In this document: positions 50,564-64,000 of the stretch, piece by piece
How the letters are laid out: each line of letters begins with the position of its first letter
How positions within the stretch are numbered: position 1 is the stretch's first letter
Assembly (NCBI RefSeq): GCF_901827155.1
Contig: NZ_LR594659.1
Coordinates: 248,001 to 312,000 of the forward strand
Length of the DNA: 64,000 bases
Direction: 5' to 3'
Source of the DNA: Variovorax sp. PBL-H6
GTDB taxonomy: Bacteria; Pseudomonadota; Gammaproteobacteria; Burkholderiales; Burkholderiaceae_C
The notes under the pieces: model-generated
Told to the model about the DNA's origin: nothing
Database searches by the model: none
What the model saw: only the letters and a program-made list of their open reading frames with translations
Made by a program: the position numbers and the translations under genes

Positions 50564-51763
50564 TCAGTGCGCGCCCGACACCACCACTGGAATCTCCGTG
50601 GCCGGCGGCGTGTTGCGGCTGCGCCCGCAGCGCACGATGCCGTCGATCATCACCATGCCGACGCCGGGGATGTCGCCCAGCTGCACGCTTTCGAGCAGCG
50701 TCTTGCCGGCCGTGTGCTGCGCCCGGTCCATGAAGACGAAGTCGGCCGCGCGGCCGGGTTCGATCAGCCCGCAGTTCAGCTTGCGGATGCGCGCCGTGTT
50801 GCCGGTCGCGAAGCAGAACACCAGCTCGGCCGGAATGTTGGCGAGCGAAGACAGCATCGCCACCATGCGCAGAATGCCCAGCGGCTGCACGCCCGAGCCG
50901 GCCGGTCCGTCGGTGCCCAGGATGATGCGGTGCGGGCACTTCAGATCCAGGGCCGCCTTGGCCGCGGCGATGGCGACACGCTCGTTGCCGTTGTGCACGA
51001 TCTCGATGGCGCGCGAGGACTTCTCGCACAGCTCGCACACGTGGGCTTCGGGCAGCGAGGTGTGGCCGCCATTGATGTGGCCGATGACGTCGGCATCGGC
51101 CTCCAGCACCACGTCCTTGTCGATCAGGCCCGAGCCCGGAATCGAGGGCCCGCCGGTGTGGATGGTGCTCTGGATGCCGTACTTGCGCGCCCAGGCCACC
51201 ATCTCCTTTGCCTCGTAGCCGGCCTTCACCGAGCCCAGGCCCACCTCGCCCAGCAGGCCGACGCCGGCCTCGGCCATTTCCTTGAAGTCGCTCTCGACCA
51301 TGCCCTTCTCGAGCACCGGCGCGCCCGCCAGCACCTTGACGCCGCCGGGGCGGAAGTTGTCGAAGGCGCGCTGCGCCGTAATGGCCAGCGCCTTCACGCC
51401 GACGATGTCCTTCGGGCGGCCGGGCAGGTGCACCTCGCCGGCGGAGATCATGGTGGTGACGCCGCCATGCATCGTGGAATCGATCCAGCCCAGCTGGCCC
51501 TGGCGCGGCGTCCAGTCGCCGAAGACGGGGTGCACGTGGCTGTCGATCAGGCCCGGCGCGACGCAGGTCTTCTTCGCGTCGATGACCGTCTGCGCGCCTT
51601 CGGTGTCGCAGTCCTTCTCCTTGCCGATGGCGACGATCAGGCCGTCGTTCACGACGATGGTGTCGGCCTCCAGAATGGGGCGGTCGAGGTCGCCCGAGAG
51701 CAGCAGACCTATGTTCCGGATGACGACCTTGCCCGACTTTGCGCCAGTTGCGACTTCTGCCAT
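50564..51763 (-). CDS. enamidase-like amidohydrolase (predicted 1,4,5,6-tetrahydro-6-oxonicotinate hydrolase)
   Basis: 399 residues from the ATG at 51763 (AGAGGA upstream). Amidohydrolase metal motifs are APGLIDSHVHPVFGDW, STIHTGGPSIPG, VIGHINGGHTS and ILGTDGPAGSG. The overall pattern is that of enamidase, the Fe-Zn enzyme of nicotinate fermentation that releases ammonia and 2-formylglutarate from tetrahydro-6-oxonicotinate. It overlaps the end of the TetR gene by 55 bases and lies near a 6-hydroxynicotinate-reductase-like gene, which makes the pathway reading consistent. The actual substrate is inferred. Confidence 0.8.
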   Translation of the reverse strand: MAEVATGAKSGKVVIRNIGLLLSGDLDRPILEADTIVVNDGLIVAIGKEKDCDTEGAQTVIDAKKTCVAPGLIDSHVHPVFGDWTPRQGQLGWIDSTMHGGVTTMISAGEVHLPGRPKDIVGVKALAITAQRAFDNFRPGGVKVLAGAPVLEKGMVESDFKEMAEAGVGLLGEVGLGSVKAGYEAKEMVAWARKYGIQSTIHTGGPSIPGSGLIDKDVVLEADADVIGHINGGHTSLPEAHVCELCEKSSRAIEIVHNGNERVAIAAAKAALDLKCPHRIILGTDGPAGSGVQPLGILRMVAMLSSLANIPAELVFCFATGNTARIRKLNCGLIEPGRAADFVFMDRAQHTAGKTLLESVQLGDIPGVGMVMIDGIVRCGRSRNTPPATEIPVVVSGAH

Positions 51764-52467
51764 TTTTTGTCCTCTTGGGGTGGTGGTGTTTCTTCCTCGG
51801 GAGCGCCCGCATCGACCGTGCGCAGCACGGTCTCGATCACGAAGTCTTCCCAGTGCGCGACCGCCTCCGGCGTCTCCAGCGGCTCGCCCAGGAAGGCGGT
51901 CAGCGTGTGGCGGTTGGAGGTGTAGAAATAGCCGGTGGAGGCGATCAACAGGTAAAGGTCGCGCGCCGCCACGTCCTTGCGGAACAGGCCTTGCGCCACG
52001 CCGCTTTCGAGCAGCTCCTGAATGATCGCGATCGCCTTCGACGAATACTCGCGCGCGCGCAGCGACTTCGCGATGTGCCGGCCCTTGTGCAGGTTCTCGG
52101 TGTTGAGCAGCGTCACGAACTCGGGGTTCTTGCGGTAGTAGCCGAGCACGAAGCTGATCACCGCCGCCAGTGCCTCGACCGGCCGGCTCGCGTCCAGATG
52201 GAGCGCTGCCTCCGCGTCGTCCATGCGACGGTAGATGCTTTCCAGCACCGCGATGAACAGCCCTTCCTTGCTGCCGAAGTAGTAGTAGATCATCCGGTCG
52301 TACGAATTGGCGGCCTTCGAGATCTTCTCGACGCTGCCGCCGTCGTAGCCGTACCTGGCGAACACCTTCGTGGCCGCGCGCAGGATGCTGTCGCGCGTGG
52401 CCTGCGCCGCGGCTTCGCGCACGCCGGTGCGGCGCGTGGCCGGCTTGGGTGCGCGGGCCGCTGCCAT
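51709..52467 (-). CDS. TetR-family transcriptional regulator
   Basis: 252 residues. The HTH (about residues 20-75) reads ATRDSILRAATKVFARYGYDGGSVEKISKAANSYDRMIYYYFGSKEGLF. A ligand-binding helical domain follows. About 35 extra C-terminal residues rich in Glu, Pro, Gln and Lys run into the neighbouring gene. Sandwiched in an operon between fpr and the enamidase-like gene, it probably controls both arms of the cluster through the inverted repeats at 53384 and 53421. Confidence 0.9.
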   Translation of the reverse strand: MAAARAPKPATRRTGVREAAAQATRDSILRAATKVFARYGYDGGSVEKISKAANSYDRMIYYYFGSKEGLFIAVLESIYRRMDDAEAALHLDASRPVEALAAVISFVLGYYRKNPEFVTLLNTENLHKGRHIAKSLRAREYSSKAIAIIQELLESGVAQGLFRKDVAARDLYLLIASTGYFYTSNRHTLTAFLGEPLETPEAVAHWEDFVIETVLRTVDAGAPEEETPPPQEDKKWQKSQLAQSRARSSSGT

Positions 52468-53241
52468 CTACTTTTCGGCGAAGGCGCGTTCGATGACGAA
52501 GTCGCCCGGGGTCGACGTGTTGCCTTCCTTGAAGCCGCGGCCTTCCAGGATGTGCTTCAGGTCCACCAGCAGGCCGGGGCTGCCGCACAGCATGACGCGG
52601 TCTTCGGCGGCGTTCAGCGGCGGCAGGCCCAGGTCGTCCGTCAACTTGTTGGTCGCGATCAGGTCGGTGATGCGGCCCATGTTGCGGAACTCCTCGCGCG
52701 TGACGGTCGGGTAGTAGAGCAGCTGCTTCTCGACCATCTCGCCCAGGAACTCGTGCTTGGGCAGGTGGTCGGTCACCAGGTCGTGATAGGCCAGCTCGTC
52801 GATCTGGCGCACCCCGTGCACCAGCACGACCTTTTCGTACTTCTCATACGTCTCCGGGTCTCGGATGATGCTCATGAACGGTGCGAGGCCCGTGCCCGTG
52901 CCGAAGAGATAAAGACGCTTGCCCGGCAGCGTGTAGTCGATCAGCAGCGTGCCGGTGGGCTTGCGGCCCACGATGATGGTGTCGCCCACCTGGATGTGCT
53001 GCAGCTTGGAGGTGAGTGGCCCTTCCTCGACCTTGATGCTGAGGAACTCCAGGTGCTCCTCGTAGTTCGGGCTCACGATGCTGTAGGCGCGCAGCAGGGG
53101 CTTGTTGTTGATCCTCAGGCCGATCATCGTGAAGTGGCCGTTCGAGAAGCGCAGCGCCGGGTCGCGGGTGGTGGTGAAGGTGAACAGGCGGTCGGTCCAG
53201 TGGTGGACGCTCAACACACGTTCTTCGCTGAATGCACTCAT
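52468..53241 (-). CDS. fpr: ferredoxin--NADP reductase
   Basis: 257 residues, the size of bacterial FPR. FAD-binding motif LLRAYSIVSPNYEE, then the NADP pocket LFGTGTGLAPFMSIIRDPE, VMLCGSPGLL, and the family C-terminus VIERAFAEK. It moves electrons between NADPH and ferredoxin or flavodoxin. Here it is the first gene of the arm diverging from a 6-hydroxynicotinate-reductase-like gene, whose known relative takes electrons from ferredoxin, so it may be the dedicated electron supply. Confidence 0.94.
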   Translation of the reverse strand: MSAFSEERVLSVHHWTDRLFTFTTTRDPALRFSNGHFTMIGLRINNKPLLRAYSIVSPNYEEHLEFLSIKVEEGPLTSKLQHIQVGDTIIVGRKPTGTLLIDYTLPGKRLYLFGTGTGLAPFMSIIRDPETYEKYEKVVLVHGVRQIDELAYHDLVTDHLPKHEFLGEMVEKQLLYYPTVTREEFRNMGRITDLIATNKLTDDLGLPPLNAAEDRVMLCGSPGLLVDLKHILEGRGFKEGNTSTPGDFVIERAFAEK

Positions 53242-53383
53242 AGGAATCAGGGATGGTTGTGAACGAAAAAACGCGCACGAACGCGGTGCGCGGTGGCGCG
53301 GAGCCGAGCACCGTCGGTCTGCCGCAACCCTCCGATTGTCGGCGACACCTGAGAAAACACCATTGCAAGCATCGGGTCTGTTT

Positions 53384-53404
53384 GCTACATTGACTTCATG
53401 TAGC
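53384..53404. promoter_or_regulatory. palindromic operator candidate 1 in the divergent control region
   Basis: GCTACAT-N7-ATGTAGC is a perfect inverted repeat with 7-bp arms, midway between fpr and the reductase gene. It shares the GTAG/CTAC half-site with the second palindrome 17 bases away. Recognition by the cluster's TetR protein is inferred. Confidence 0.6.
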
Positions 53405-53420
53405 GATCACCACATGAATT

Positions 53421-53436
53421 TGTAGTGAATGCTACA
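53421..53436. promoter_or_regulatory. palindromic operator candidate 2 in the divergent control region
   Basis: TGTAG-TGAATG-CTACA is a perfect inverted repeat with 5-bp arms, extended imperfectly by TT/CAA on the flanks. Same half-site as the element at 53384. It lies 81 bases before the reductase ATG. Confidence 0.55.
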
Positions 53437-53516
53437 CAAAGCGAAGTTCCAGCACAAGCAGCAGCCCGGCGCATTTGTTGCACACCCCGCCGCCACGATT
53501 TCACGAGAAGCCCGCG

Positions 53517-55124
53517 ATGACCGAACACACCAAGACAGACGGATTGCCCGGCATGGACGTGCCAGTGCTGCCCGAGGCCGGTGGCCGCGCACCCTTGCGC
53601 AACGAGCGCATGGGCGCGGCCAAGGTCGAGTGCAACGCCTGCCCCGTGCTCTGCCAGATCTCCGAGGGCCGCACCGGCGCCTGCGACCGCTATGCCAACC
53701 GCGAAGGCGTGCTGGTGCGGGTCGACCCGGTGCTGCTGCTGCGTCGCGAGCTGGCCAGCGAGTCGCCGGCGCTGGTGCCCTTCGCGCGCCCCGCTGCCGA
53801 GCCGGCGGCGCCCGGTGCCGAGCCCGAATGGAGCGGCGATCTCCTCCATGCCGACGAGGTCTTCGTGACCGGCGTGGGCTCCTCCACCACCTATCCCGAT
53901 TACAAGCCGGCGCCCTTCATCGTGGCGTCCAAGGCGCAGGGCGTGGACATGGTCACGGTGGTCACCGAGGGCATCTTCAGCTACTGCAGCTTCAAGGTGA
54001 AGATCGACACCGACCGCTTCCTCGGCGCCGAGCAGGCCAACGTGCGCTACCGCGGCGAGGTGGTGGGCCACGTCACCACCGCTGAATACGGCTCGCAGAT
54101 GCTCTCGCTCGGCGGCGTGCACCATCTCACCGGCGGCAGCAAGAAAGAAGGCCGGATGACGGCCGAGCTGATGCAGCTGCTGGGCAACAAGAAGGCAGTC
54201 GAATGCGTGATCGATGGCGGCGCCGGCATGGTGATCCAGGCCGGCCGCGCGCCCATCGTCAACGGTGTCGAGGAACAACGCATGCGCGTGGGCTGCGGCT
54301 CGGCCGCGATCGGCATCTTCGCGCGCCAGCTCTTCGGCCAGGCCGACGAGGTGGTGGTGGTCGACGATCACATCACCGGCGTGCTGACCGAGCACCAGGC
54401 CGGCCGCTGCCTCGACATGCAGCCCTCGGGCATCCAGATGCGCGGGCGCAAGTCCACGCCGGGGCGTTACTTCCAGGTGGCCAATCCGGGCAATGGCTGG
54501 GGCGGTACCGACATCGACGACCCGCTCTCGATCATCGAAGGCTGGGAAGAAGGCGTGGCCAGGCCGGGCCTGCGCCTGCTGATGACGTCCACCACGGGCG
54601 AGCATGCGCAGTGGTACGTGCTCGACGACGAGCTCAAGCCCGTCGAGCAGCAGATGCCGGCCGAAGTGCGCCGCGTCGTCGAGCGCATCGGCGAGAACTG
54701 CGAGCCCTCGCTGTGCAGCGTGCTCTTCCTCGGCGGCGCCGGCGGCTCCTTGCGCGCCGGCGTGACGGAGAACCCCGTGCTGCTCACCCGTGCCATCAAG
54801 CGCGCGCTGGTCAACGTGACCTGCGGCGGCGCGCCGGCCTATGTGTGGCCGGGCGGCGGCATCACCGTCATGGCCGACGTGCTGCGCATGCCCGACAACA
54901 GCTTCGGCACCGTGCCGACGCCGGCCATCGTGGCGCCCATCGAATTCAGCATGCGGCGCGATGACTACGCGGCCCTCGGCGGTCACATGGAGCATGTGTT
55001 CTCGCTCGAGCAGGCGCTGGCGCGCGGCGCCTGGCAGAACGACGGCGCACCGCTTGCGCGCCAATGGCTTCGCATGGACGATGCCAACCCTTGGCCGCTG
55101 GGCCACCCGCCGATGCTCGGTTGA
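53517..55124 (+). CDS. 6-hydroxynicotinate reductase-like iron-sulphur flavoprotein
   Basis: 535 residues from ATG 53517. Near residue 40 a cysteine cluster CNACPVLC then GAC (Cx2Cx3Cx9C) suits a [4Fe-4S] centre. Further cysteines (SYCS, VGCGS, NCEPSLC, VTCGG) are spread through the chain. The rest matches the family I know as 6-hydroxynicotinate reductase, which reduces the ring to tetrahydro-6-oxonicotinate; the E. barkeri enzyme holds Fe-S clusters and covalent flavin. It heads the rightward operon opposite fpr. The start carries only a weak AGAAG. Confidence 0.82.
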   Translation: MTEHTKTDGLPGMDVPVLPEAGGRAPLRNERMGAAKVECNACPVLCQISEGRTGACDRYANREGVLVRVDPVLLLRRELASESPALVPFARPAAEPAAPGAEPEWSGDLLHADEVFVTGVGSSTTYPDYKPAPFIVASKAQGVDMVTVVTEGIFSYCSFKVKIDTDRFLGAEQANVRYRGEVVGHVTTAEYGSQMLSLGGVHHLTGGSKKEGRMTAELMQLLGNKKAVECVIDGGAGMVIQAGRAPIVNGVEEQRMRVGCGSAAIGIFARQLFGQADEVVVVDDHITGVLTEHQAGRCLDMQPSGIQMRGRKSTPGRYFQVANPGNGWGGTDIDDPLSIIEGWEEGVARPGLRLLMTSTTGEHAQWYVLDDELKPVEQQMPAEVRRVVERIGENCEPSLCSVLFLGGAGGSLRAGVTENPVLLTRAIKRALVNVTCGGAPAYVWPGGGITVMADVLRMPDNSFGTVPTPAIVAPIEFSMRRDDYAALGGHMEHVFSLEQALARGAWQNDGAPLARQWLRMDDANPWPLGHPPMLG

Positions 55125-55136
55125 ACGGGAGCGCCC

Positions 55137-56057
55137 ATGAGTGCCCAACGCAGCGCGCTCGACGGAGGCCGCTGGCATTTCAACCATGGCCCGATCGACA
55201 TCGTGGCCGAGGCGCATGGCGATGACGTCGAGGTTGCCGTTGCGCACGAGCTCGCATGGCGGCGTTTCGGCACGGTGCTCGACGAACTCGTGGCCGAGCT
55301 GCGCCTGCTGCGCCAGCCCGTGGGCGAGGCCTGTGCGCTGGAGGGCCCGATCGCGCGCCGCATGTGGGAGGCGTGCGCGCCCTACCGCGCCAGCTTCATC
55401 ACGCCGATGGCCGCGGTGGCGGGGGCCGTCGCCCAGGAGCTCGTGGCTTGCTACCAGCGCGAAGGCATCGAGCGCGCCTGGATCAACAACGGCGGCGACA
55501 TCGCCTTGCACCTCGCGCCCGGCCAGTCGGCGCGCGTCGGCCTCTTCGCCGACCTGGCGCGCTTCGACATTCGCGAGCGCGGGCCGCTCACCACCGACGG
55601 CCAGTTCGAACTGCGCGCCGAGATGCCCGAGCGCGGCGTCGCCACCAGCGGCTGGCGCGGGCGCAGCTTCTCGCTCGGCATTGCCGACAGCGTGACCGTG
55701 ATTGCGGCGACGGCAGCAGAGGCCGATGCGGCGGCCACGGTGATCGCCAATGCCGTGAATGTGGAAGACGCGGGCGTCCATCGCCGCCCGGCGAGCGAAT
55801 GCAAGGACGACAGCGACCTCGGCGACATTCCGGTGACGGTGAATGTCGAGCCGCTCGCGCCCGCGCAGGTGCAGCGCGCACTGGCCGCGGGCGCAGCCCG
55901 CGCCGCGGATCTGCAGCGCGCGGGACGGATCGGGTCCGCCATGCTCGTTTGCCAGGGGCAATGGCGGCTGGTGGAGCCCTTAAGCTTGCGGGGATCGGGC
56001 ATGTCTTCGCTCGGGAATTCGCCGCAGGCTGCTGCAGTTGGTTCAGTATTTGCTTAA
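55137..56057 (+). CDS. UPF0280 (ApbE-superfamily-like) protein
   Basis: 306 residues. Family blocks: HFNHGPIDIVAEAHG, PIARRMWEACAPYRASFITPMAAVAGAVAQELV, AWINNGGDIALHLAPGQSARVGL, WRGRSFSLGIADSVTVIAATAAEADAAATVIANAV. UPF0280 proteins share the fold of ApbE flavin transferases, and the TPMAAVAG and NNGGDIA stretches are the ApbE-like core. It starts 12 bases after the reductase stop. Since the known reductase carries covalent flavin, a flavin-attachment role is a good hypothesis but is not shown. Confidence 0.85.
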   Translation: MSAQRSALDGGRWHFNHGPIDIVAEAHGDDVEVAVAHELAWRRFGTVLDELVAELRLLRQPVGEACALEGPIARRMWEACAPYRASFITPMAAVAGAVAQELVACYQREGIERAWINNGGDIALHLAPGQSARVGLFADLARFDIRERGPLTTDGQFELRAEMPERGVATSGWRGRSFSLGIADSVTVIAATAAEADAAATVIANAVNVEDAGVHRRPASECKDDSDLGDIPVTVNVEPLAPAQVQRALAAGAARAADLQRAGRIGSAMLVCQGQWRLVEPLSLRGSGMSSLGNSPQAAAVGSVFA

Positions 56058-56078
56058 CGAAAAGCAGGACTTGTCTTC

Positions 56079-56723
56079 ATGATCGATATCCGCCGTGTCT
56101 TCACCCAGGTCGAGCACATCCACCACGAATTCGGCCCGCGTGCCGCCACGCCGCTGGTGCGTGGTGCCATCGGCGCGGTGCTGACCAACCCCTTTGCCGG
56201 CCGCTACGAGCCGGACATCCTGCCGATGATGGCGCTGCTCGACCCGGTCGGCGTCGACCTGGCGCACCGCCTGCATGCGGCGATGGACGTGCCGCTCGAT
56301 CGCATCGCGACCTACGGCAAGGGCGCCATCGTCGGTGCCGCCGGCGAGCTCGAGCATGGTGCGCTGTGGCACGTACCGGGCGGCTACGCCATGCGCGAGC
56401 TGCTGGGCTGGAAGGGCGACCGGGCGGCCTACACCGCCGGCACCGTCGACGAGAAGAAGACCGGCCAGCCCGGCAACGCGCTGTCGATCGTGCCTTCGAC
56501 CAAGAAGGTCGGACCGCCCGGCGCCGCGCTGGACGTGCCGCTCACCAACATCAATGCCAGCTACGTGCGCGGCCAGTTCGACGCCATCGAAGTGCGCGTG
56601 CCGGGTGCACCGGCGGCCGACGAGATCGTCTTCATCCTGGCGATGAGCACCGGCTACCGCGTGCATGACCGCGTGGGCGGCCTGCGCGCCGAGAACATCG
56701 CCAAGTGGGATGGCCTGCGCTGA
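56079..56723 (+). CDS. DUF1185 / amino-acid-synthesis family protein (paralogue 1)
   Basis: 214 residues. The family pattern is visible: TPLVRGAIGAVLTNPFAGRYEPDILPMM, ATYGKGAIVGAAGELEHGALWHVPGGYAMRELL, PSTKKVGPPGAALDVPLTNINASYVRGQFDAIEVRV and DEIVFILAMSTGYRVHDRVGGL. Known structures of this family have a chorismate-mutase-like variant fold, with no established reaction. The context suggests a step in N-heterocycle breakdown. A shorter paralogue follows. Confidence 0.88.
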   Translation: MIDIRRVFTQVEHIHHEFGPRAATPLVRGAIGAVLTNPFAGRYEPDILPMMALLDPVGVDLAHRLHAAMDVPLDRIATYGKGAIVGAAGELEHGALWHVPGGYAMRELLGWKGDRAAYTAGTVDEKKTGQPGNALSIVPSTKKVGPPGAALDVPLTNINASYVRGQFDAIEVRVPGAPAADEIVFILAMSTGYRVHDRVGGLRAENIAKWDGLR

Positions 56724-56763
56724 ACCCGCAACGCCCTTCATTCAGAGACACAAGGAAAGAACC

Positions 56764-57348
56764 ATGAGCGCCAACATCCGCAAGCTCGTCGTGCAGATCG
56801 ACGAAACCCGCAAGGAAATGGGCAAGACCATCGAGCCGCCCGCGCGCCGCGCTGTCGCCATTGCCGTCATCGAGAACCCTTACGCCGGGCGCTACAGCGA
56901 ATCGCTCGACGAGCTGATTGCCATCGGCGAGGAACTGGGCGCGCTGCTGGGCCAGAAGGCCGTCAAGGCGCTGGGCATCGAGCCCGGCCAGGCGCAGAGC
57001 TATGGCAAGGCCGCGATCGTCGGCGAGAGCGGTGAGCTGGAGCATGCGGCGGCGATCCTGCACCCCAAGCTCGGTGCGCCGTTGCGCGTGGCGGTGGAGA
57101 AGGGCGCGGCGCTGGTGCCTTCGGCCAAGAAGCGCGGCACCCTCGGCACCGCCATCGACGTGCCGCTGGGTCACAAGGACGCGGCCTTCGTGCGCAGCCA
57201 TTTCGACGCAGTCGAGGCGCGCGTGTCGGATGCACCGCGCGCCAACGAAATCGTGGTCGCCGTGGCCGTGACCGACAGCGGGCGTCCGCTGCCGCGCATC
57301 GGCGGGCTGCAGGTTTCCGAGATCAAGGGTGAGGATGGACTCCGCTGA
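56764..57348 (+). CDS. DUF1185 / amino-acid-synthesis family protein (paralogue 2)
   Basis: 194 residues. Shares with the preceding protein ENPYAGRYSESLDELI, YGKAAIVGESGELEHAAAILHPK, PSAKKRGTLGTAIDVPLGHKDAAFVRSHFDAVEARV and NEIVVAVAVTDSGRPLPRIGGL, but lacks the insert around the LGWKGDRAAY region. AAGGAAAG precedes the ATG. Tandem duplication followed by divergence suggests either a heteromer or two related substrates. Confidence 0.88.
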   Translation: MSANIRKLVVQIDETRKEMGKTIEPPARRAVAIAVIENPYAGRYSESLDELIAIGEELGALLGQKAVKALGIEPGQAQSYGKAAIVGESGELEHAAAILHPKLGAPLRVAVEKGAALVPSAKKRGTLGTAIDVPLGHKDAAFVRSHFDAVEARVSDAPRANEIVVAVAVTDSGRPLPRIGGLQVSEIKGEDGLR

Positions 57349-57400
57349 GCCTCACTGCCACCTGTCGCAATTCATCAACCATTCCAACGAGGAGTTCACC

Positions 57401-58612
57401 ATGACCATGCGTTTCGCGCTCAGCGCGGTGTCGATCGCCGCTCTCACCTTCGCACTGATTCCCGCCGCGCAAGCGCAGGGCGTGATCAAGATCGGCGAGA
57501 TCAACAGCTACAAGGCCCAGCCTGCCTTCCTCGAGCCCTACAAGAAGGGCATGGAGCTGGCGGTCGACGAGATCAATGCCGCGGGCGGGGTCAACGGCAA
57601 GAAGATCGAGCTCGTCACGCGCGACGACAACGCCAACCCCGGCGACGCGGTGCGCGTGGCCGAGGAGCTGGTCTCGCGCGAGAAGGTCGACATGCTCGCG
57701 GGCACCTTCCTGTCGAACACCGGCCTGGCGGTCACCGACTTCGCCAAGCAGAAGAAGTTCTTCTTCCTGGCCGGCGAGCCGCTCACCGACAAGATCACCT
57801 GGCAGGGCGGCAACCAGTACACCTTCCGCCTGCGCCCCGGCACCTACATGCAGGCCGCGATGCTGGTACCCGAGGCAGCCAAGCTCAAGAAGAAGCGCTG
57901 GGCGCTGGTCTACCCCAACTACGAATACGGCCAGTCGGCGGTGGCGGCCTTCAAGAACCTGCTGAAGGCGGCGCAGCCCGACGTGGAGTTCGTGGCCGAG
58001 CAGGCCACGCCCCTCGGCAAGGTCGATGCCGGCAGCGTGGTGCAGGCCCTGGCAGACGCCAAGCCGGACGCCATCTTCAACGTGCTCTTTGCCGCCGATC
58101 TCTCGAAGTTTGTCCGCGAGGGCAACACGCGCGGCCTGTTCAAGGACCGCGAGGTGGTCAGCGTGCTGACCGGCGAGCCCGAGTACATGGACGCTCTGAA
58201 GGACGAGGCGCCCAACGGCTGGATCGTGACCGGCTATCCGTGGTACGGCATCAACACGCCCGAGCACAAGAAGTTCGAGCAGGCGTACCAGGCCAAGTTC
58301 AAGGACTACCCGCGCCTGGGTTCGGTGGTGGGCTACAGCATGATCAAGTCGGCCGCCGCCGGCATTGCCAAGGCCAAGAGCACCGACACCGACAAGCTGG
58401 TCGCGGCCTTCAAGGGCCTGCAGGTCGATACGCCCTTCGGCAAGATCAGCTACCGCCCGGAAGACCACCAGTCGACCATGGGCGCTTTCGTGGGCCGCAC
58501 CAAGAACGAGGGCGGCAAGGGCGTGATGGTCAACTACGTGTACCTCGATGGTGCCGACCCCAAGTACCAGCCGCCGATCGAAGAGCTGAAGAAGTCCCGC
58601 GCGAACGATTGA
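57401..58612 (+). CDS. branched-chain-amino-acid-type ABC transporter substrate-binding protein
   Basis: 403 residues from ATG 57401 (GAGGAG upstream). A Sec signal ends at AAQAQG. The mature chain has the type I receptor pattern: IKIGEINSYKAQPAFLEPYKKGMELAVDEINAAGGVNGKKIELVTRDDNANPGDAVRVAEELVSREKVDMLAG, then RWALVYPNYEYGQ. LivJ-like receptors take amino acids, amides or aromatic acids. Its place after the reductive pathway genes suggests a pyridine carboxylate or related ligand. Confidence 0.92.
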   Translation: MTMRFALSAVSIAALTFALIPAAQAQGVIKIGEINSYKAQPAFLEPYKKGMELAVDEINAAGGVNGKKIELVTRDDNANPGDAVRVAEELVSREKVDMLAGTFLSNTGLAVTDFAKQKKFFFLAGEPLTDKITWQGGNQYTFRLRPGTYMQAAMLVPEAAKLKKKRWALVYPNYEYGQSAVAAFKNLLKAAQPDVEFVAEQATPLGKVDAGSVVQALADAKPDAIFNVLFAADLSKFVREGNTRGLFKDREVVSVLTGEPEYMDALKDEAPNGWIVTGYPWYGINTPEHKKFEQAYQAKFKDYPRLGSVVGYSMIKSAAAGIAKAKSTDTDKLVAAFKGLQVDTPFGKISYRPEDHQSTMGAFVGRTKNEGGKGVMVNYVYLDGADPKYQPPIEELKKSRAND

Positions 58613-58630
58613 GGCAGAGGCGAACGAGTC

Positions 58631-60547
58631 ATGAGCTTTTCAGGTTTCATCGTCCAGCTGCTCAACGGACTGGCGAGCGCGTCCTCGCTGTTCCTCGTGG
58701 CGGCGGGGCTGTCGCTGATCTTCGGCGTCACGCGGATCGTGAATTTCGCGCATGGCTCGTTCTTCATGGTGGGCATCTACATTGCCTACACGCTGGTCGA
58801 TCGCCTGGGCACCGGCTTCGGCTTCTGGCCCTCGCTGGTGCTGGCGGCGCTGGCGGTGGGCGTGCTCGGCGCGCTGATCGAAGTGGTGCTGCTGCGCCGC
58901 ATCTACAAGGCCCCCGAACTCTTCCAGCTGCTGGCCACCTTCGCCCTGGTGCTGGTGATCAAGGACGCGGTGCTGTGGCTCTGGGGCCCCGACGAGCTGC
59001 TGGGCCCGCGTGCGCCCGGGCTCTCCGGCTCGGTTGCCATCCTCGGGCGCCAGTTCCCGTCCTATGACCTGTTCCTGATCGTGGTCGGCCCGGTGGTGCT
59101 GGGCCTGGTGTGGATGCTGCTCACGCGCACCCGCTTCGGCACCCTGGTGCGTGCCGCCACGCAAGACCGCGAGATGGTCAGCGCGCTGGGCGTCAACCAG
59201 GCCTGGCTGTTCACGGCCGTGTTCGCGCTCGGCGCGCTGCTCGCGGGCCTGGGCGGTGCGCTGCAGCTGCCGCGCGAGCCCGCCACGCTGGAGATGGACC
59301 TCAACACCATCGGCGCCGCCTTCGTGGTGGTGGTGGTGGGCGGCATGGGCTCGATCCCCGGCGCTTACGCGGCCGCGCTGCTGATCGCCGAGATCAAGGC
59401 GATCTGCATCTGGCTGGGCGTGGTCGATGTCTTCGGCATCAGCGTGTCCTTTTCCAAGCTCACGCTGGTGGTGGACTTCCTCGTGATGGCCGTGGTGCTG
59501 GTGTGGCGCCCGTGGGGCCTGTTCGGCCGTCCGCAGGCTGCCAGCCGCCACGTCGGCATGCAGGAGGAGCCGTTGCGCCGCCCGAGCCGGGCCTACCTGG
59601 TGGCTGCTGCCGTCTTCGGGCTGGTGCTGGCGGCCTTGCCGGTCTTCACGGCCGACTCGCCCTACACGATGGTGCTGATGATCGACCTGATGATCGCTGC
59701 GCTCTTCGCCACCAGCCTGCACTTCATCATGGGCCCCGCCGGGATGCATTCCTTCGGGCACGCGGCCTACTTCGGGCTCGGCGCGTACGGCGCCGCGCTG
59801 CTGGTGCGTGCGAGCGGCATGCCGATGGAGCTGGCGCTCATCGTCGCGCCGTTGGTGGCTGCCGCCGGTGCCTTCATCTACGGTTGGTTCGCGGTGCGGC
59901 TCTCGGGCGTGTACCTGGCTATGCTGACGCTGGCTTTCGCGCAGATCACCTGGGCCATCACCTACCAGTGGGACGGCTTCACCGGCGGTAGCAACGGATT
60001 GACGGGCGTATGGCCGGCGGAGTGGCTGTCGGACAAGCGGGTGTATTACTGGCTCACGCTGGCGCTGGTCGCGCTGGGCGTGCTGTGGCTGCGCCGCGTG
60101 CTGTTCTCACCCTTCGGCTATGCGCTGCGTGCGGGGCGCGACTCGGCGCTGCGGGCGGATGCGATCGGGATCGACGTGAAACGCATGCAGTGGGCGGCCT
60201 TCGTGATCGCGGGGACTGCGGCGGGGCTCGCTGGAGCGTTGTATGCGTTTTCCAAGGGCAGCATCTCGCCGGAGTCGCTGAGCGTGGGCAAGTCGGTGGA
60301 CGGGCTGGTGATGGTGCTGCTGGGCGGCATCCAGACGCTGGCGGGGCCGGTCGTGGGCGCGGTTACCTTCACCTGGCTGCATGACACGGTGGCGCGCAAT
60401 ACCGACTACTGGCGGGCAATGCTGGGGGGGATCATCTTGCTGCTGGTGCTGCTGTTCCCGCAGGGGATCGCGGGGTTTGCGAAGCAGTTGTTCGATCGGA
60501 AGCGGCATGAGAAAGATGCGGGTGAGTTGAAGGAGGTGAAGGCTTGA
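58631..60547 (+). CDS. fused LivH-LivM-type ABC transporter permease
   Basis: 638 residues, two permeases in one chain. Residues 1-300 are LivH-like: LFLVAAGLSLIFGVTRIVNFAHGSFFMVG, VRAATQDREMVSALGVN, FVVVVVGGMGSIPGAYAAALLIAE. Residues 315-638 are LivM-like: FATSLHFIMGPAGMHSFGHAAYFGLGAYGAALL, LRAGRDSALRADAIGIDVKRMQW, LGGIQTLAGPVVGAV. Usually these are separate subunits. The ATPase genes of the same system lie beyond an 800-base repeat-filled gap. Confidence 0.92.
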   Translation: MSFSGFIVQLLNGLASASSLFLVAAGLSLIFGVTRIVNFAHGSFFMVGIYIAYTLVDRLGTGFGFWPSLVLAALAVGVLGALIEVVLLRRIYKAPELFQLLATFALVLVIKDAVLWLWGPDELLGPRAPGLSGSVAILGRQFPSYDLFLIVVGPVVLGLVWMLLTRTRFGTLVRAATQDREMVSALGVNQAWLFTAVFALGALLAGLGGALQLPREPATLEMDLNTIGAAFVVVVVGGMGSIPGAYAAALLIAEIKAICIWLGVVDVFGISVSFSKLTLVVDFLVMAVVLVWRPWGLFGRPQAASRHVGMQEEPLRRPSRAYLVAAAVFGLVLAALPVFTADSPYTMVLMIDLMIAALFATSLHFIMGPAGMHSFGHAAYFGLGAYGAALLVRASGMPMELALIVAPLVAAAGAFIYGWFAVRLSGVYLAMLTLAFAQITWAITYQWDGFTGGSNGLTGVWPAEWLSDKRVYYWLTLALVALGVLWLRRVLFSPFGYALRAGRDSALRADAIGIDVKRMQWAAFVIAGTAAGLAGALYAFSKGSISPESLSVGKSVDGLVMVLLGGIQTLAGPVVGAVTFTWLHDTVARNTDYWRAMLGGIILLLVLLFPQGIAGFAKQLFDRKRHEKDAGELKEVKA

Positions 60548-60566
60548 TTGCCTCGGACTTCGATTT

Positions 60567-60784
60567 GCTCCCTCTCCCTCTGGGAGAAGGGTGGGGTGAG
60601 GGCACCGGGCCTTCGATTTGTACGTTGCGCTTGTTCGGAGGCCGGAGCCGGGGCGTCGTCCCGGCGGCCGAGTCACTTTCTTTTGCTTCGCCAAAAGAAA
60701 GTAACCAAAGAAAAGGCGACCCCACTGCGCGTGACCCTTCGCTTCGCTACGGGCAACCTGCGGTGCTCGCTTTTCGCGGGGTCC
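60567..60784 (+). repeat. left arm of a large inverted repeat
   Basis: 218 bases beginning GCTCCCTCTCCC and ending TCGCGGGGTCC. Its inner part has the motif CACTTTCTTTTGCTTCGCCA with its own palindromic core TCTTTTGCTTCGCCAAAAGA, and AACCTGCGGTGCTCGC. The reverse complement of 61093-61310 matches it with few differences. The same family's outer end occurs at 34120 and 34192. Confidence 0.9.
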
Positions 60785-60950
60785 GCGCAAACTCGCTGCG
60801 CTCAAACACGCGCGGCCCTGATCCGCGAAAAGCTCCGCTCCTCGGCACGCGCAGAGGGGAGTGGGGACCGTTCGGGCCATTGCTTCGCTCGGCCACCAAC
60901 GGCCTCGCTGCGCGAGGCCTGGAACAGGTGCGTGCTTATGCGCCCCAACG

Positions 60951-61078
60951 TGAGCATGAGCATGAGCATGGCCATGAGCACAAGCACGAGTACCAGTACG
61001 AGCACAAGTACGAGCGCGAGCTTGTGCAAGTGCATGTGCTGCGTGTGCGTGTGCGTGTGCGTGTGCGAGTGCGCGAGA
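60951..61078 (+). repeat. low-complexity repeats in the hairpin loop
   Basis: Runs of GAGCAT and GAGCAC/GAGTAC (60951-61020) are followed by runs of GTGTGC (61041-61070). These are simple repeats prone to slippage, not a CRISPR-like array: there are no unique spacers. Confidence 0.75.
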
Positions 61079-61092
61079 GCCAACGTGAGCGA

Positions 61093-61310
61093 GGACCCCG
61101 CGAAAAGCGAGCACCGCAGGTTGCCCGTAGCGAAGCGGAGGGTCGCGGCCAGTGGGGTCGCCTTTTCTTTGGTTACTTTCTTTTGGCGAAGCAAAAGAAA
61201 GTGACTCGGCTGCCGGGACGACATCCCGGCTCCGGCCTCAACACAAGCGCACGGTACCAATCGACCGCCCGGTGCCCTCACCCCAACCCTCTCCCCGAGG
61301 GAGAGGGAGC
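61093..61310 (-). repeat. right arm of a large inverted repeat
   Basis: 218 bases, the inverted mate of 60567-60784, beginning GGACCCCGCGAAAAGCGAGC and ending GAGGGAGAGGGAGC. Equal arm length and high similarity suggest recent gene conversion or one event that created both. Folded as RNA the arms would form a stem of about 200 bp. Confidence 0.9.
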
Positions 61311-61346
61311 AACACCCGCGGGAGCAAGACGCGCAGAACCAAGACC

Positions 61347-62147
61347 ATGAGCCTCCTCAAAGTCCAAGAACTCGGCAAGTCCTTCGGCGGCGTCAAGGCC
61401 GTCGACGGCATCAGCTTCGACCTCGCCCCCGGCGAGCTGCTGGCGCTCATCGGCCCCAACGGCGCCGGCAAGTCCACCACCTTCAACATGGTCAACGGCC
61501 AGCTCAAGGCCGACCGCGGCTCGATCCTGCTCGATGGCGAAGAGCTGGTGGGTCGCAGGCCGCGGGAAATCTGGCGCATGGGCGTGGGCCGCACCTTCCA
61601 GATCGCCGAGACCTTCGCCTCGCTCACCGTCGTGGAGAACGTGCAGATGGCCCTGCTGTCGCACGACCACAAGCTGTTCTCGACCTGGCGCCGCGCCGCC
61701 GACCACAAGCGCGACGAAGCGCTGGTCCTGCTCGATCAAGTCGGGATGAAGGCGCAGGCGGACCGGCCCTGCAGCGTGCTCGCCTACGGCGACGTCAAGC
61801 GCGTCGAGCTCGCGATCGCCATGGCCAATTCGCCCAAGCTGCTGCTGATGGACGAGCCCACCGCCGGCATGGCGCCCAAGGAGCGCAACTCATTGATGGC
61901 CCTCACGAAACAGCTGGTGATCGACCGCGGCATGGCCGTGCTCTTCACCGAGCACAGCATGGACGTGGTCTTCGCGTACGCCGACCGGATGATCGTGCTC
62001 GCGCGCGGCCGCCTCATCGCGCAGGGCAAGCCGCTCGAGATCCGCGACCATCCGAAGGTGCAGGAGGTCTACTTCGGCAGCGGCAAGACCTTCGAGAAGA
62101 TCGCCGAGAAGGCCGCCGCTGTGAATGCGGCCGTGGGAGAGGCTTGA
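61347..62147 (+). CDS. branched-chain-type ABC transporter ATP-binding protein (LivG-like)
   Basis: 266 residues from ATG 61347, just after the right repeat arm. Motifs: Walker A GPNGAGKSTTFN, Q-loop RTFQIAETF, signature-like LAYGDVKRVELAIA in place of LSGGQ, Walker B LLLMDEPTAGMAP and the TEHSMDVVF histidine. The C-terminal HPKVQEVYFG extension is typical of LivG. It energises the permease at 58631. Confidence 0.94.
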   Translation: MSLLKVQELGKSFGGVKAVDGISFDLAPGELLALIGPNGAGKSTTFNMVNGQLKADRGSILLDGEELVGRRPREIWRMGVGRTFQIAETFASLTVVENVQMALLSHDHKLFSTWRRAADHKRDEALVLLDQVGMKAQADRPCSVLAYGDVKRVELAIAMANSPKLLLMDEPTAGMAPKERNSLMALTKQLVIDRGMAVLFTEHSMDVVFAYADRMIVLARGRLIAQGKPLEIRDHPKVQEVYFGSGKTFEKIAEKAAAVNAAVGEA

Positions 62148-62175
62148 TGAGTTCCGCCCCCGAAGGTGTATTTCA

Positions 62176-62910
62176 ATGATCACGCACGAAACACTGCTCG
62201 AAGCCAAGTCCCTCCGCGCCTGGTACGGCGCCGCCCAGATCCTCTACGACGTCGACCTCGAGGTGCGCCGCGGCGAAGTGGTCGCGCTGATGGGCCGCAA
62301 CGGCGCCGGCAAGTCCACCACGCTCAAGGCGCTGATCGGGATGCTCTCCAAGCGGCGCGGCGCGGTGCGTTTCCTGGGCCACGACATCTCGAAGTGCGAG
62401 CCGCACCATGCGGCCAAGCTGGGCCTCGGCTTCGTGCCCGAGGACCGGCGCGTGTTCACCGACCTCACGGTGATGGAGAACCTCGAAGTCGGCAAACAGG
62501 CGCCGCGCCGATGGTCCGACGGCAGCGATGCGCCGCTGTGGACGCCCGAGCGCCTGTTCAAGCTTTTCCCCAACCTCGGCGAGATGCCGCAGCGCCCGGG
62601 CGGCCGCATGAGCGGCGGCGAGCAGCAGATGCTGACGGTGGCGCGAACGTTGATGGGCAACCCCTACCTCGTGCTGCTGGACGAGCCCTCCGAAGGCGTG
62701 GCGCCGCTCATCGTCGAGCAGATGGCCAACATGATCCTCGAGCTCAAGGCGCAGGGCGTGAGCATCCTTCTGTCGGAGCAGAACATGCACTTCGCCGAGC
62801 TGGTCTCCGACCGCGCCTACGTGCTGGAGAAGGGGCAGATCCGCTACCAGGCTTCGATGGCCGACCTGGCGACCAACGAGGAAGTGCGGCGGGCCTACCT
62901 GTCCGTCTGA
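62176..62910 (+). CDS. branched-chain-type ABC transporter ATP-binding protein (LivF-like)
   Basis: 244 residues from ATG 62176. Walker A GRNGAGKSTTLKALIG, LGFVPEDRRVFTDLTVMENLEVG, signature MSGGEQQMLTVARTLMGNP, Walker B LVLLDEPSEGVAP, SEQNMHFA and the LivF ending EEVRRAYLSV. It pairs with the LivG-like protein 28 bases upstream. Confidence 0.94.
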   Translation: MITHETLLEAKSLRAWYGAAQILYDVDLEVRRGEVVALMGRNGAGKSTTLKALIGMLSKRRGAVRFLGHDISKCEPHHAAKLGLGFVPEDRRVFTDLTVMENLEVGKQAPRRWSDGSDAPLWTPERLFKLFPNLGEMPQRPGGRMSGGEQQMLTVARTLMGNPYLVLLDEPSEGVAPLIVEQMANMILELKAQGVSILLSEQNMHFAELVSDRAYVLEKGQIRYQASMADLATNEEVRRAYLSV

Positions 62911-62944
62911 GCCAGGGTTTTTCATCAACCGAGGAGCGAACATC

Positions 62945-63670
62945 ATGCACGACACGCACCGCAGAATCTTTCTCCAGTCCGCTGCCGCATTGGGCCTGGC
63001 CGGCTTGTCGATGCCGCTGTTCGCGGCGGCAAAGGTCAGGCCGAACGACAAGTCGGCGCTGATCGTGGTCGACGTGCAGAACTGCTTCGTCGACGGCGGC
63101 ACGCTGCCGGTGAAGGGCGGCGCGGATGTGGTGCCGGTGATCAACAAGCTGTCCACCGCCTTCGAGAACATCGTGCTCACGCAGGACTGGCACACGCAGG
63201 GCCATGCGTCCTTCGCGAGCGCACATGCGGGACAGAAGCCCTTCAGCAGCATCAAGCTGGGCTACGGCAACCAGGTGCTGTGGCCCGACCACTGCGTGCA
63301 GGGCACGGACGACGCCGCGCTGCACAAGGACCTGAAGCTGCCGAGCGCGCAGCTGATCATCCGCAAGGGCTACCACAAGGGCGTGGACAGCTACTCGGCC
63401 TTCGAGGAGGCCGACCGCAAGACGCCCACGGGCCTGGCCGGCTACCTCAAGCAGCGCGGCATCAAGACCGTGTTCGTTACCGGGCTGGCCACCGACTTCT
63501 GCGTGGCCTGGACCGCGCTCGATGCGCGCAAGGCTGGCTTCGAGGCCTATGTGATCGAGGACGCGACGCGGGCCATCGACCTCGACGGCTCGCTCGCGAA
63601 GGCCTGGAAGGAGATGCAGGCCAAGGGGGTCAAGCGCATCCAGTCCAGCGACATCGAGATCAGCGCTTGA
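62945..63670 (+). CDS. Tat-exported nicotinamidase-like cysteine hydrolase
   Basis: 241 residues. The N-terminus HRRIFLQSAAALGLAGLSMP is a Tat signal (RRIFL matches the RRxFL core) ending near FAAAKV. The mature enzyme has the nicotinamidase triad: Asp in LIVVDVQNCFVDGG, Lys in IIRKGYHKGVDSYSAF, Cys in VTGLATDFCVAWTALDA. Metal ligands are in DWHTQGHASF. It probably deamidates nicotinamide to nicotinate in the periplasm. The isochorismatase superfamily includes other amidases, so the substrate rests on context. Confidence 0.88.
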   Translation: MHDTHRRIFLQSAAALGLAGLSMPLFAAAKVRPNDKSALIVVDVQNCFVDGGTLPVKGGADVVPVINKLSTAFENIVLTQDWHTQGHASFASAHAGQKPFSSIKLGYGNQVLWPDHCVQGTDDAALHKDLKLPSAQLIIRKGYHKGVDSYSAFEEADRKTPTGLAGYLKQRGIKTVFVTGLATDFCVAWTALDARKAGFEAYVIEDATRAIDLDGSLAKAWKEMQAKGVKRIQSSDIEISA

Positions 63671-63679
63671 AAGTGAAGC

Positions 63680-63779
63680 TCTCCCACAGGCTCCCCCACT
63701 TCGTGGGGTCCGCCAACCCCCTTCCGGGGGCAACACCAGCGGCCCGGCAAAGCCGGTTCCGCGGTGTTCCACGAACGCA
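63680..63779. repeat. intergenic repeat with nested hairpins
   Basis: Between the hydrolase and the next gene: CCCCAC-TTC-GTGGGG (63693-63707), ACCCCCTTCCGGGGG (63716-63730), and an outer AACACC/GGTGTT pair enclosing CCGG-CAAAG-CCGG (63731-63769). The layout resembles REP-type elements scattered between genes in Comamonadaceae. It could attenuate or stabilise the transcript. Confidence 0.65.
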
Positions 63780-64000
63780 ATGCCGGAACTCGCACTGAAG
63801 GTCAACGGACGCGACGTCGCACTGTCGGTGCCCGAGGCGGCCACGCTGCTGCACGTGCTGCGCAACGACCTCGCGCTCAACGGCCCCAAGTACGGCTGCG
63901 GCCTCGGCCAGTGCGGGGCTTGCACGGTGTGGGTGGACGGTGTGGCGGCGCGGGCCTGCGTGATCCCTGCGCATGGCGTGGCGGGACGTGCCATCACCAC
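63780..64000 (+). CDS. [2Fe-2S] small subunit of a molybdenum hydroxylase (partial, cut by the right edge)
   Basis: The first 73 residues or so from ATG 63780. After MPELALKVNGRDVALSVPEAATLLHVLRNDL comes YGCGLGQCGACTVWVDG, the plant-type ferredoxin cysteine cluster, and then RACVIPAHG leading to the second cluster region outside the window. This subunit type serves isoquinoline, nicotinate and aldehyde dehydrogenases of the xanthine dehydrogenase family. In this context nicotinate 6-hydroxylation is the likely reaction; the large subunit would lie just beyond the edge. Confidence 0.88.
   Translation, partial: MPELALKVNGRDVALSVPEAATLLHVLRNDLALNGPKYGCGLGQCGACTVWVDGVAARACVIPAHGVAGRAIT

Follow-up and report, generated by a model that had tools for sequence, protein, structure and literature searches.

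Can an aerobic bacterium take nicotinate apart by reducing its ring? The question is raised by a divergent gene cluster at positions 50564–64000 of a 64,000-nucleotide stretch of DNA from Variovorax sp. PBL-H6 (contig NZ_LR594659.1, positions 248,001–312,000), hereafter called the window. A preliminary description of this stretch had named in the cluster a nicotinamidase, a molybdenum hydroxylase subunit, a 6-hydroxynicotinate reductase (Hnr), an enamidase, a ferredoxin reductase, a transporter and a regulator, and had read them as the upper part of the nicotinate fermentation of E. barkeri. Every one of these genes is indeed present as an open frame backed by a family match or a structure; for Hnr the backing consists of the names of its homologues. 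We conclude from the sequence that the cluster very probably encodes the upper steps of reductive nicotinate breakdown in an aerobe of the Variovorax type. What carries this conclusion is the orthology of the enamidase to the E. barkeri enzyme, the nicotinamidase, the molybdenum hydroxylase, the names given to near relatives of Hnr, and a gene linkage that recurs. The novelty of the pathway itself is low: this is a further member of a kind of cluster already described, here in another order (Burkholderiales). The part that deserves follow-up is the pair formed by Hnr and its neighbour, a UPF0280 protein.

From the centre outwards, the minus strand encodes a ferredoxin–NADP reductase, a TetR regulator and the enamidase, and the plus strand encodes Hnr, UPF0280, two PF06684 proteins, a Liv-type ATP-binding cassette (ABC) transporter, the nicotinamidase and the 2Fe-2S subunit of the molybdenum hydroxylase. 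The three genes between Hnr and the transporter (UPF0280 and the PF06684 or 'AA_synth' pair) had been left out of the preliminary description. We set the start of the enamidase at about 51763, so that the gene spans 50564–51763. The enamidase is an orthologue of the E. barkeri enzyme, as the reductive upper route calls for. A phmmer search aligned residues 11–390 of its 399 with the solved structure 2vun (372.8 bits, E 2.4e-110), the next solved relative scoring 30.1 bits, and the HVH, GEVGLG, HTGG and HINGG motifs and a late Asp are all aligned with 2vun.

Hnr (plus strand, 53517–55124, 535 residues) has no match in Pfam or NCBIfam at E ≤ 0.001. We assign it to the Hnr family through its homologues, plasmid records included: among the 120 of 8000 matches listed, near relatives are called 6-hydroxynicotinate reductase by their sources, mostly through automatic annotation, and the others are unnamed or 'hypothetical protein'. 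Annotators have labelled the genes of related plasmid clusters nicA, nicB, nicR and hnr, and the counterpart in Variovorax sp. WDL1 is 97% identical. Across 71 aligned sequences, that of the window among them, an N-terminal four-cysteine motif (C39, C42, C46 and C56) is kept without exception. Three further cysteines (C157, C260 and C395) are equally invariant, as is a DHITG motif followed by Ser or Thr at position 291. A structure of Hnr would be informative because no solved relative was found by sequence.

The molybdenum hydroxylase runs over the window end, and we fetched the DNA past position 64000 (stretch L004) to read its genes. The NicA-like 2Fe-2S subunit (plus strand, 63780–64000, continuing to window-equivalent 64259; PF01799 and PF00111 at L004:780–1256) is complete there at 159 residues. 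A large subunit of about 1252 residues then follows outside the window (L004:1256–5014, plus strand, with an inferred GTG start); it has two molybdopterin domains (MoCoBD_1 and MoCoBD_2) and cytochrome c domains, with three CxxCH motifs in its translation (CAVCH, CGACH and CGACH).

The nicotinamidase (plus strand, 62945–63670) scores above the curated NCBIfam cut-off (NF008623, 178.7 versus 174 bits) and begins with a twin-arginine-like leader (HRRIFLQSAAALGLAG). Such leaders are common in its clustered relatives: by a strict rule they occur in 24 of 39 loci, and 7 more fit by eye (RRxV), making 31 in all; 6 have no leader, and 2 mis-started frames were left unjudged. The leaders suggest that the nicotinamidase is periplasmic, and an enzyme supplying a nicotinate importer from the periplasm would be a reasonable reading.

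Chance does not account for the arrangement of the cluster: in 100 further loci that carry Hnr, most of the same genes turn up again close to it. Relatives of Hnr are encoded in at least 591 genome stretches, of which we used the best 80. Their titles name genera or families of Burkholderiales or say no more than 'beta proteobacterium' or 'bacterium', and, chosen as closest to the window, these 80 fail to sample the whole spread. With 20 regions of other genomes these make up the 100 loci, all chosen for having Hnr and all with flanks of at most 10 kb. UPF0280 lies near Hnr in 99 of them, and the sole exception (L071) is a contig of 3,055 bases, which breaks off shortly past Hnr. The other counts are LivHM 89, the PF06684 proteins AAs1 88 and AAs2 87, NicA 83, LivG 83, LivF 80, Ena (enamidase) 76, SBP (binding protein) 74, TetR 73, Fpr (ferredoxin reductase) 68, NicB 63 and PncA (nicotinamidase) 39; these are lower bounds because contig or flank ends cut many loci, and flank length limits NicB most, both its count and the labels 'NicB' and 'NicB with cytochrome'.

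On this reading, nicotinamide would be hydrolysed by the nicotinamidase, exported by virtue of its leader, and nicotinate would enter the cell through the Liv-type transporter. The molybdenum hydroxylase would convert nicotinate to 6-hydroxynicotinate and, by way of its fused cytochrome c, deliver the electrons to the respiratory chain. Hnr would reduce 6-hydroxynicotinate to 1,4,5,6-tetrahydro-6-oxonicotinate, with electrons passing from NADPH through the ferredoxin–NADP reductase, their probable source, and a ferredoxin encoded elsewhere. Hydrolytic opening of the ring by the enamidase would, by orthology, yield 2-formylglutarate and ammonia.

How does this compare with known systems? The molybdenum hydroxylase, Hnr and enamidase steps are common to the fermentation of E. 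barkeri, an anaerobe with a different lower nicotinate route, whereas here the hydroxylase bears cytochrome c domains. The Pseudomonas nic route, in which NicAB precedes oxidative ring cleavage, likewise has a two-subunit molybdenum hydroxylase with cytochrome c, carried by NicB; here, by contrast, we expect 6-hydroxynicotinate to undergo reduction. The scan of the cluster's genes turned up nothing that resembles NicC or NicX. The oxidative nicC/nicX route does occur in another member of the Burkholderiales, Burkholderia gladioli NGJ1, according to an excerpt of PMC10269826.

The preliminary description had implied that a reductive route in an aerobe would be a surprise. That surprise is not supported, for the route in Azorhizobium caulinodans and such clusters in other proteobacteria are already published. 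Excerpts of PMC3511419 relate that the reduction of 6-hydroxynicotinate, first found in E. barkeri, was later reported for an aerobe, A. caulinodans, and that strain SG-6C, a nicotinate-degrading aerobe, encodes an Hnr homologue (42% identity with that of E. barkeri) within a cluster common to A. caulinodans and other proteobacteria. The legend of Figure 4 in that 2012 description of aerobic alphaproteobacteria names clusters in A. caulinodans, Bradyrhizobium japonicum USDA110, R. palustris HaA2 and SG-6C. An excerpt of PMC9304392 names Azorhizobium beside E. barkeri and terms their pathway anaerobic. Our cluster is of the same kind as the Azorhizobium type as excerpted from PMC3511419, but has a Burkholderiales host, a TetR regulator and a Tat-like nicotinamidase. 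It is likely that two unknown proteins in those published clusters are UPF0280 and PF06684. The Variovorax cluster is not described among the literature matches listed for Hnr, enamidase and E. barkeri, or for 6-hydroxynicotinate with Burkholderiales names, the latter listing being too short a part of the matches to exclude such a description; the cluster extends the described aerobic reductive route to Variovorax and other Burkholderiales. The linkage between UPF0280 and Hnr could matter more than this extension.

That linkage is tight. The UPF0280 gene (plus strand, 55137–56057; NF003322, 393 bits versus a cut-off of 290) encodes a distant ApbE relative. In an even draw of 398 genomes from the phylum, Hnr is present in 32 (15 of 212 genera), and the genomes with UPF0280 above the NCBIfam cut-off are exactly the same 32. 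In every one, UPF0280 lies downstream of Hnr on the same strand, 7 to 488 bases past the matched Hnr end. The Fisher value for co-occurrence is 6e-48, which overstates independence because the 32 genomes are related. The same holds for 72,556 plasmids: 26 have Hnr, 27 have UPF0280 and 26 have both. PF06684 is a looser companion, being found in 59 of the 398 genomes, 31 of them with Hnr, and one genome (G139) has Hnr but no PF06684.

The association is not strictly exclusive. A plasmid of Hydrogenophaga sp. BPS33 has UPF0280 without Hnr, and two genomes that lack Hnr (G293 and G373) show weak UPF0280 matches under the cut-off. On the BPS33 plasmid, UPF0280 belongs to repeated stretches flanked by IS1071, alongside a Rieske oxygenase, a PDR/VanB reductase and a uracil-DNA-glycosylase-like gene.

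We take UPF0280 to be the same family as COG2122, which agrees with what we saw in 14 control genomes. There the UPF0280 model matches only M. jannaschii and M. acetivorans, in both cases under the cut-off, and both of these have DUF39 (PF01837). Synechococcus elongatus, another control, has DUF39 and no UPF0280 match, and DUF39 is found in none of the 398 phylum genomes. A literature search did not find the name 'UPF0280', and the matches listed for 'COG2122' carry no nicotinate in their titles. The linkage makes it most likely that UPF0280 is an accessory or maturation factor needed to make Hnr active or keep it so.

What would such a factor do? Excerpts of PMC5764234 describe COG2122 as a distant ApbE relative that Desulfovibrio vulgaris needs, alongside DUF39 and a NIL/ferredoxin protein, to form homocysteine; a part in persulfide modification has been suggested by others, and the chemistry is unsettled. 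If the families are one, that pathway, as excerpted, and our cluster have in common a COG2122 protein and an iron-sulfur protein, the partner here being Hnr and not DUF39. We also make a broader proposal, which we consider a serious possibility, though somewhat short of probable. COG2122 would be a general accessory whose single chemistry serves two or more clients that look unrelated, namely DUF39 in the anaerobic synthesis of homocysteine and Hnr where aerobes reduce N-heterocycles, Hnr being practically its sole client in Pseudomonadota; and Hnr with UPF0280, usually joined by PF06684, would form a portable ring-reducing core that works with varied hydroxylases and ring openers (enamidase or hydantoinase) on several heterocycles. 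If this is true, the role of COG2122 would become visible through Hnr of a genetically tractable aerobe. The biochemistry of this family is hard to study in methanogens and sulfate reducers, and an aerobic Hnr with and without UPF0280 would make the question directly answerable.

The relationship to ApbE bears on the chemistry. Over the GGD...ADxxAT region UPF0280 resembles the ApbE superfamily, with an hhalign E of 6.7e-6 and a probability of 84.7 in one pairwise comparison, for which the ApbE profile included some doubtful frames; Pfam ApbE gives an E of 0.00026 and 21 bits, under its cut-off of 25.6. All 84 UPF0280 proteins aligned keep N117, G119, G120, D121, T170, S171, G172 and D197, and position 201 is Thr in 81 and Ser in 3; the Asp and Thr are those of the metal site. 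The transferases are defined by an H-x-x-D-P segment, which ApbE uses for catalysis and flavin binding. Between TSG and SVTV, none of the 84 UPF0280 proteins shows an H-x-(ILMV)-D-P motif. The stretch from TSG to SVTV is 12 residues long in UPF0280 (82 of 84 measurable) against 30 in ApbE frames (7 of 13 measurable). Eight of those 13 ApbE frames have the motif and five do not, two of these being partial or sub-threshold matches and the rest probably wrong frames. We therefore favour an accessory role for UPF0280, ApbE-like as it is but lacking H-x-x-D-P, without choosing between flavin and sulfur chemistry, and we give the idea of an ordinary ApbE flavin transferase less weight for want of that segment.

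A transferase of the ApbE kind would attach flavin mononucleotide (FMN) covalently to Hnr. The detectable kinship, the retained NxGGD and TSG motifs, and in Hnr the invariant DHITG with its following Ser or Thr as a possible site, all fit such an enzyme; yet the loss of the catalytic and flavin-binding segment, together with an Hnr motif unlike the SGAT pattern that serves as flavin acceptor, makes it unlikely.

UPF0280 might instead act through sulfur, as proposed for COG2122 in methanogens, by loading a persulfide or helping to build the iron-sulfur centre of Hnr. The seven invariant cysteines of Hnr would suit this, as would the Desulfovibrio requirement for COG2122 alongside DUF39 and NIL/ferredoxin, with its suggested persulfide role (PMC5764234, excerpts), and the description of MA1715 as a sulfur donor in an excerpt of PMC12068725. 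On the other hand, no cysteine is among the positions conserved in at least 97% of the 84 UPF0280 proteins, so a cysteine persulfide on UPF0280 itself is unlikely. Moreover, comparison of Hnr with DUF39/HcyBio (PF01837) gave a profile probability of 0.4% and segments no better than reversed controls, which leaves a shared client mechanism unsupported; both profiles are shallow, with effective sequence numbers (Neff) of 2.0 and 2.7. We regard the sulfur mechanism, like the flavin one, as unlikely. Kinship between Hnr and DUF39, as an explanation of the shared partner, is left unproven by these shallow profiles but is not disproved.

Having set out the case for the reductive nicotinate route, we must weigh what speaks against it. 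The identity of Hnr is taken from what its homologues are called. The large subunit of the molybdenum hydroxylase, which the preliminary description had expected beyond position 64000 as a test of the substrate, was found there, but it is not diagnostic. It passes no NCBIfam cut-off, and among solved structures its molybdenum part comes closest to the large subunit of an aldehyde dehydrogenase (8gy3_C, 151.7 bits), ahead of the nicotinate dehydrogenase of E. barkeri (3hrd_B, 101.7 bits). A molybdenum hydroxylase is present, but its sequence does not fix its substrate, and nicotinate is assigned from context. Among the cluster genes scanned, none was recognised as encoding a ferredoxin. One locus (L082) with full 10-kb flanks lacks an enamidase in reach, although it has a nicotinamidase, NicA and NicB. 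Finally, in 109 loci (the 100 and nine plasmid regions), the Hnr–UPF0280 core stands beside hydantoinase-type genes without an enamidase in 12 and with neither opener in 18, several loci being cut short.

These ring openers tell us something about the core itself. Among the 109 loci an enamidase-type gene is present in 79 and a hydantoinase-type gene in 14, two of which carry an enamidase too; the remaining 18 have neither within the fetched stretch. The hydantoinase-type genes of those two are only 36–42% identical to the hydantoinase query. The 12 loci with a hydantoinase and no enamidase in reach are L121, L122, L124, L127–L129 and L167–L172; those that are plasmid records are all from Alphaproteobacteria, and the hydroxylase in reach is of the XDH type, of the NicB type or absent. 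Burkholderiales loci have the enamidase type only, except L111, which has both openers. On a tree of 66 chosen rows (44 enamidase, 12 hydantoinase and 10 none) the enamidase label changes 9 times and the hydantoinase label 5 times, where shuffling gives means of 18.4 and 11.2. Contig ends account for some of the 'none' labels and inflate the change counts, and one row, L129, has a split Hnr and a long branch. This pattern suggests that ring openers have been exchanged between Hnr cores. Because the core occurs with a hydantoinase or with neither opener, Hnr alone does not fix the substrate, and since the core is combined with different openers and hydroxylases, Hnr-type reduction may serve more than one heterocycle.

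Could our cluster then break down some other hydroxylated N-heterocycle, for example another pyridine carboxylate, with the nicotinamidase-like enzyme acting on its amide? The varied hydroxylases and openers of related loci and the large subunit's failure to reach an NCBIfam cut-off would allow it, but we consider it very unlikely, given an enamidase so close to the characterised E. barkeri enzyme, a nicotinamidase above its curated cut-off, and a tree in which the Burkholderiales rows form one group of 40, 36 with an enamidase and 4 labelled none where the gene is out of reach.

The reductive nicotinate route that we prefer leaves 2-formylglutarate to be processed further. The lower steps would probably run via glutarate, as an excerpt of PMC3511419 reports for A. 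caulinodans. We identified no lower-pathway gene here: CsiD (PF08943) has no match in the genome, and glutaryl-CoA dehydrogenase was not searched for. The 3-methylitaconate isomerase of the E. barkeri lower route belongs to the PrpF family (PF04303), the sole family of that route for which we searched; the genome has four such genes, all at 3.98–4.27 Mb and far from the cluster at 0.30 Mb. A FAH-family gene, which we considered as a lower-pathway enzyme, follows the large subunit about 13 kb past the Hnr end. It is seen in none of the 100 loci, an absence that is uninformative because the gene lies outside their flanks of about 10 kb at most.

The two PF06684 (DUF1185, AA_synth) proteins are encoded on the plus strand at 56079–56723 (209.6 bits versus a cut-off of 27) and 56764–57348 (239.4 bits); the second is a close relative of the solved protein 2qtp (phmmer E 5.7e-86). 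Speculatively, they might act on the product of reduction or of ring opening. In an excerpt of PMC7913881 the homologue TgnF is cited as stimulating oxidation by TgnE in Acinetobacter baylyi, and the like was proposed for HcdD in coumarin breakdown, where all attempts to see an effect failed. Because of those failures, the idea that the PF06684 pair acts on reactive intermediates is no more than a lead.

The plus strand encodes all components of a Liv-type transporter: a binding protein (57401–58612; PF13458, 244.7 bits, scanned from 57404), a fused LivH–LivM permease (58631–60547; PF02653 in two stretches), a LivG-type ATPase (61347–62147; PF00005 and PF12399, scanned from 61350) and a LivF-type ATPase (62176–62910; PF00005, scanned from 62179).

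On the minus strand, the ferredoxin–NADP reductase (52468–53241) has PF00175 and PF00970 domains and scores 138.5 bits with NF008178, under the cut-off of 390. The TetR regulator (51709–52467; PF00440 and PF17938) is RutR-like, its best NCBIfam match being RutR at 66.4 bits, far under the cut-off of 368. It probably controls the divergent promoters through TGTAG/CTACA palindromes. Two palindromes lie between the divergent genes and are candidate operators: GCTACATTGACTTCATGTAGC at 53384–53404, with 7-base arms, and TGTAGTGAATGCTACA at 53421–53436, whose position was found with a pattern made from that site. A pattern copied from the first site matches nowhere else in the window. In 36 of the 80 closest loci, from Variovorax to Paraburkholderia, TGTAG/CTACA palindromes lie no more than 350 bases upstream of Hnr, as compared with 3 in the 1.31 Mb of remaining, mostly coding, sequence of those loci; the pattern was picked after viewing 18 upstream regions, the window's included, and many of the 80 loci are closely related. 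Partial versions are visible in some rows among the other 44. Conserved in part of the loci, the palindrome is a candidate operator.

One further feature lies inside what appears to be a single operon. The gap of roughly 800 bases that separates the permease gene from the first ATPase gene (60548–61346) reads as an imperfect inverted repeat of large size, with short simple repeats mid-way. In 100-base bins, at least one 16-base word of this repeat is shared with L004:3550–3650, the start of the linker between the molybdenum and cytochrome c parts of the large subunit, which reads LLPLPPGEGWGEG. A repeat element may therefore lie in frame within the large-subunit coding region.

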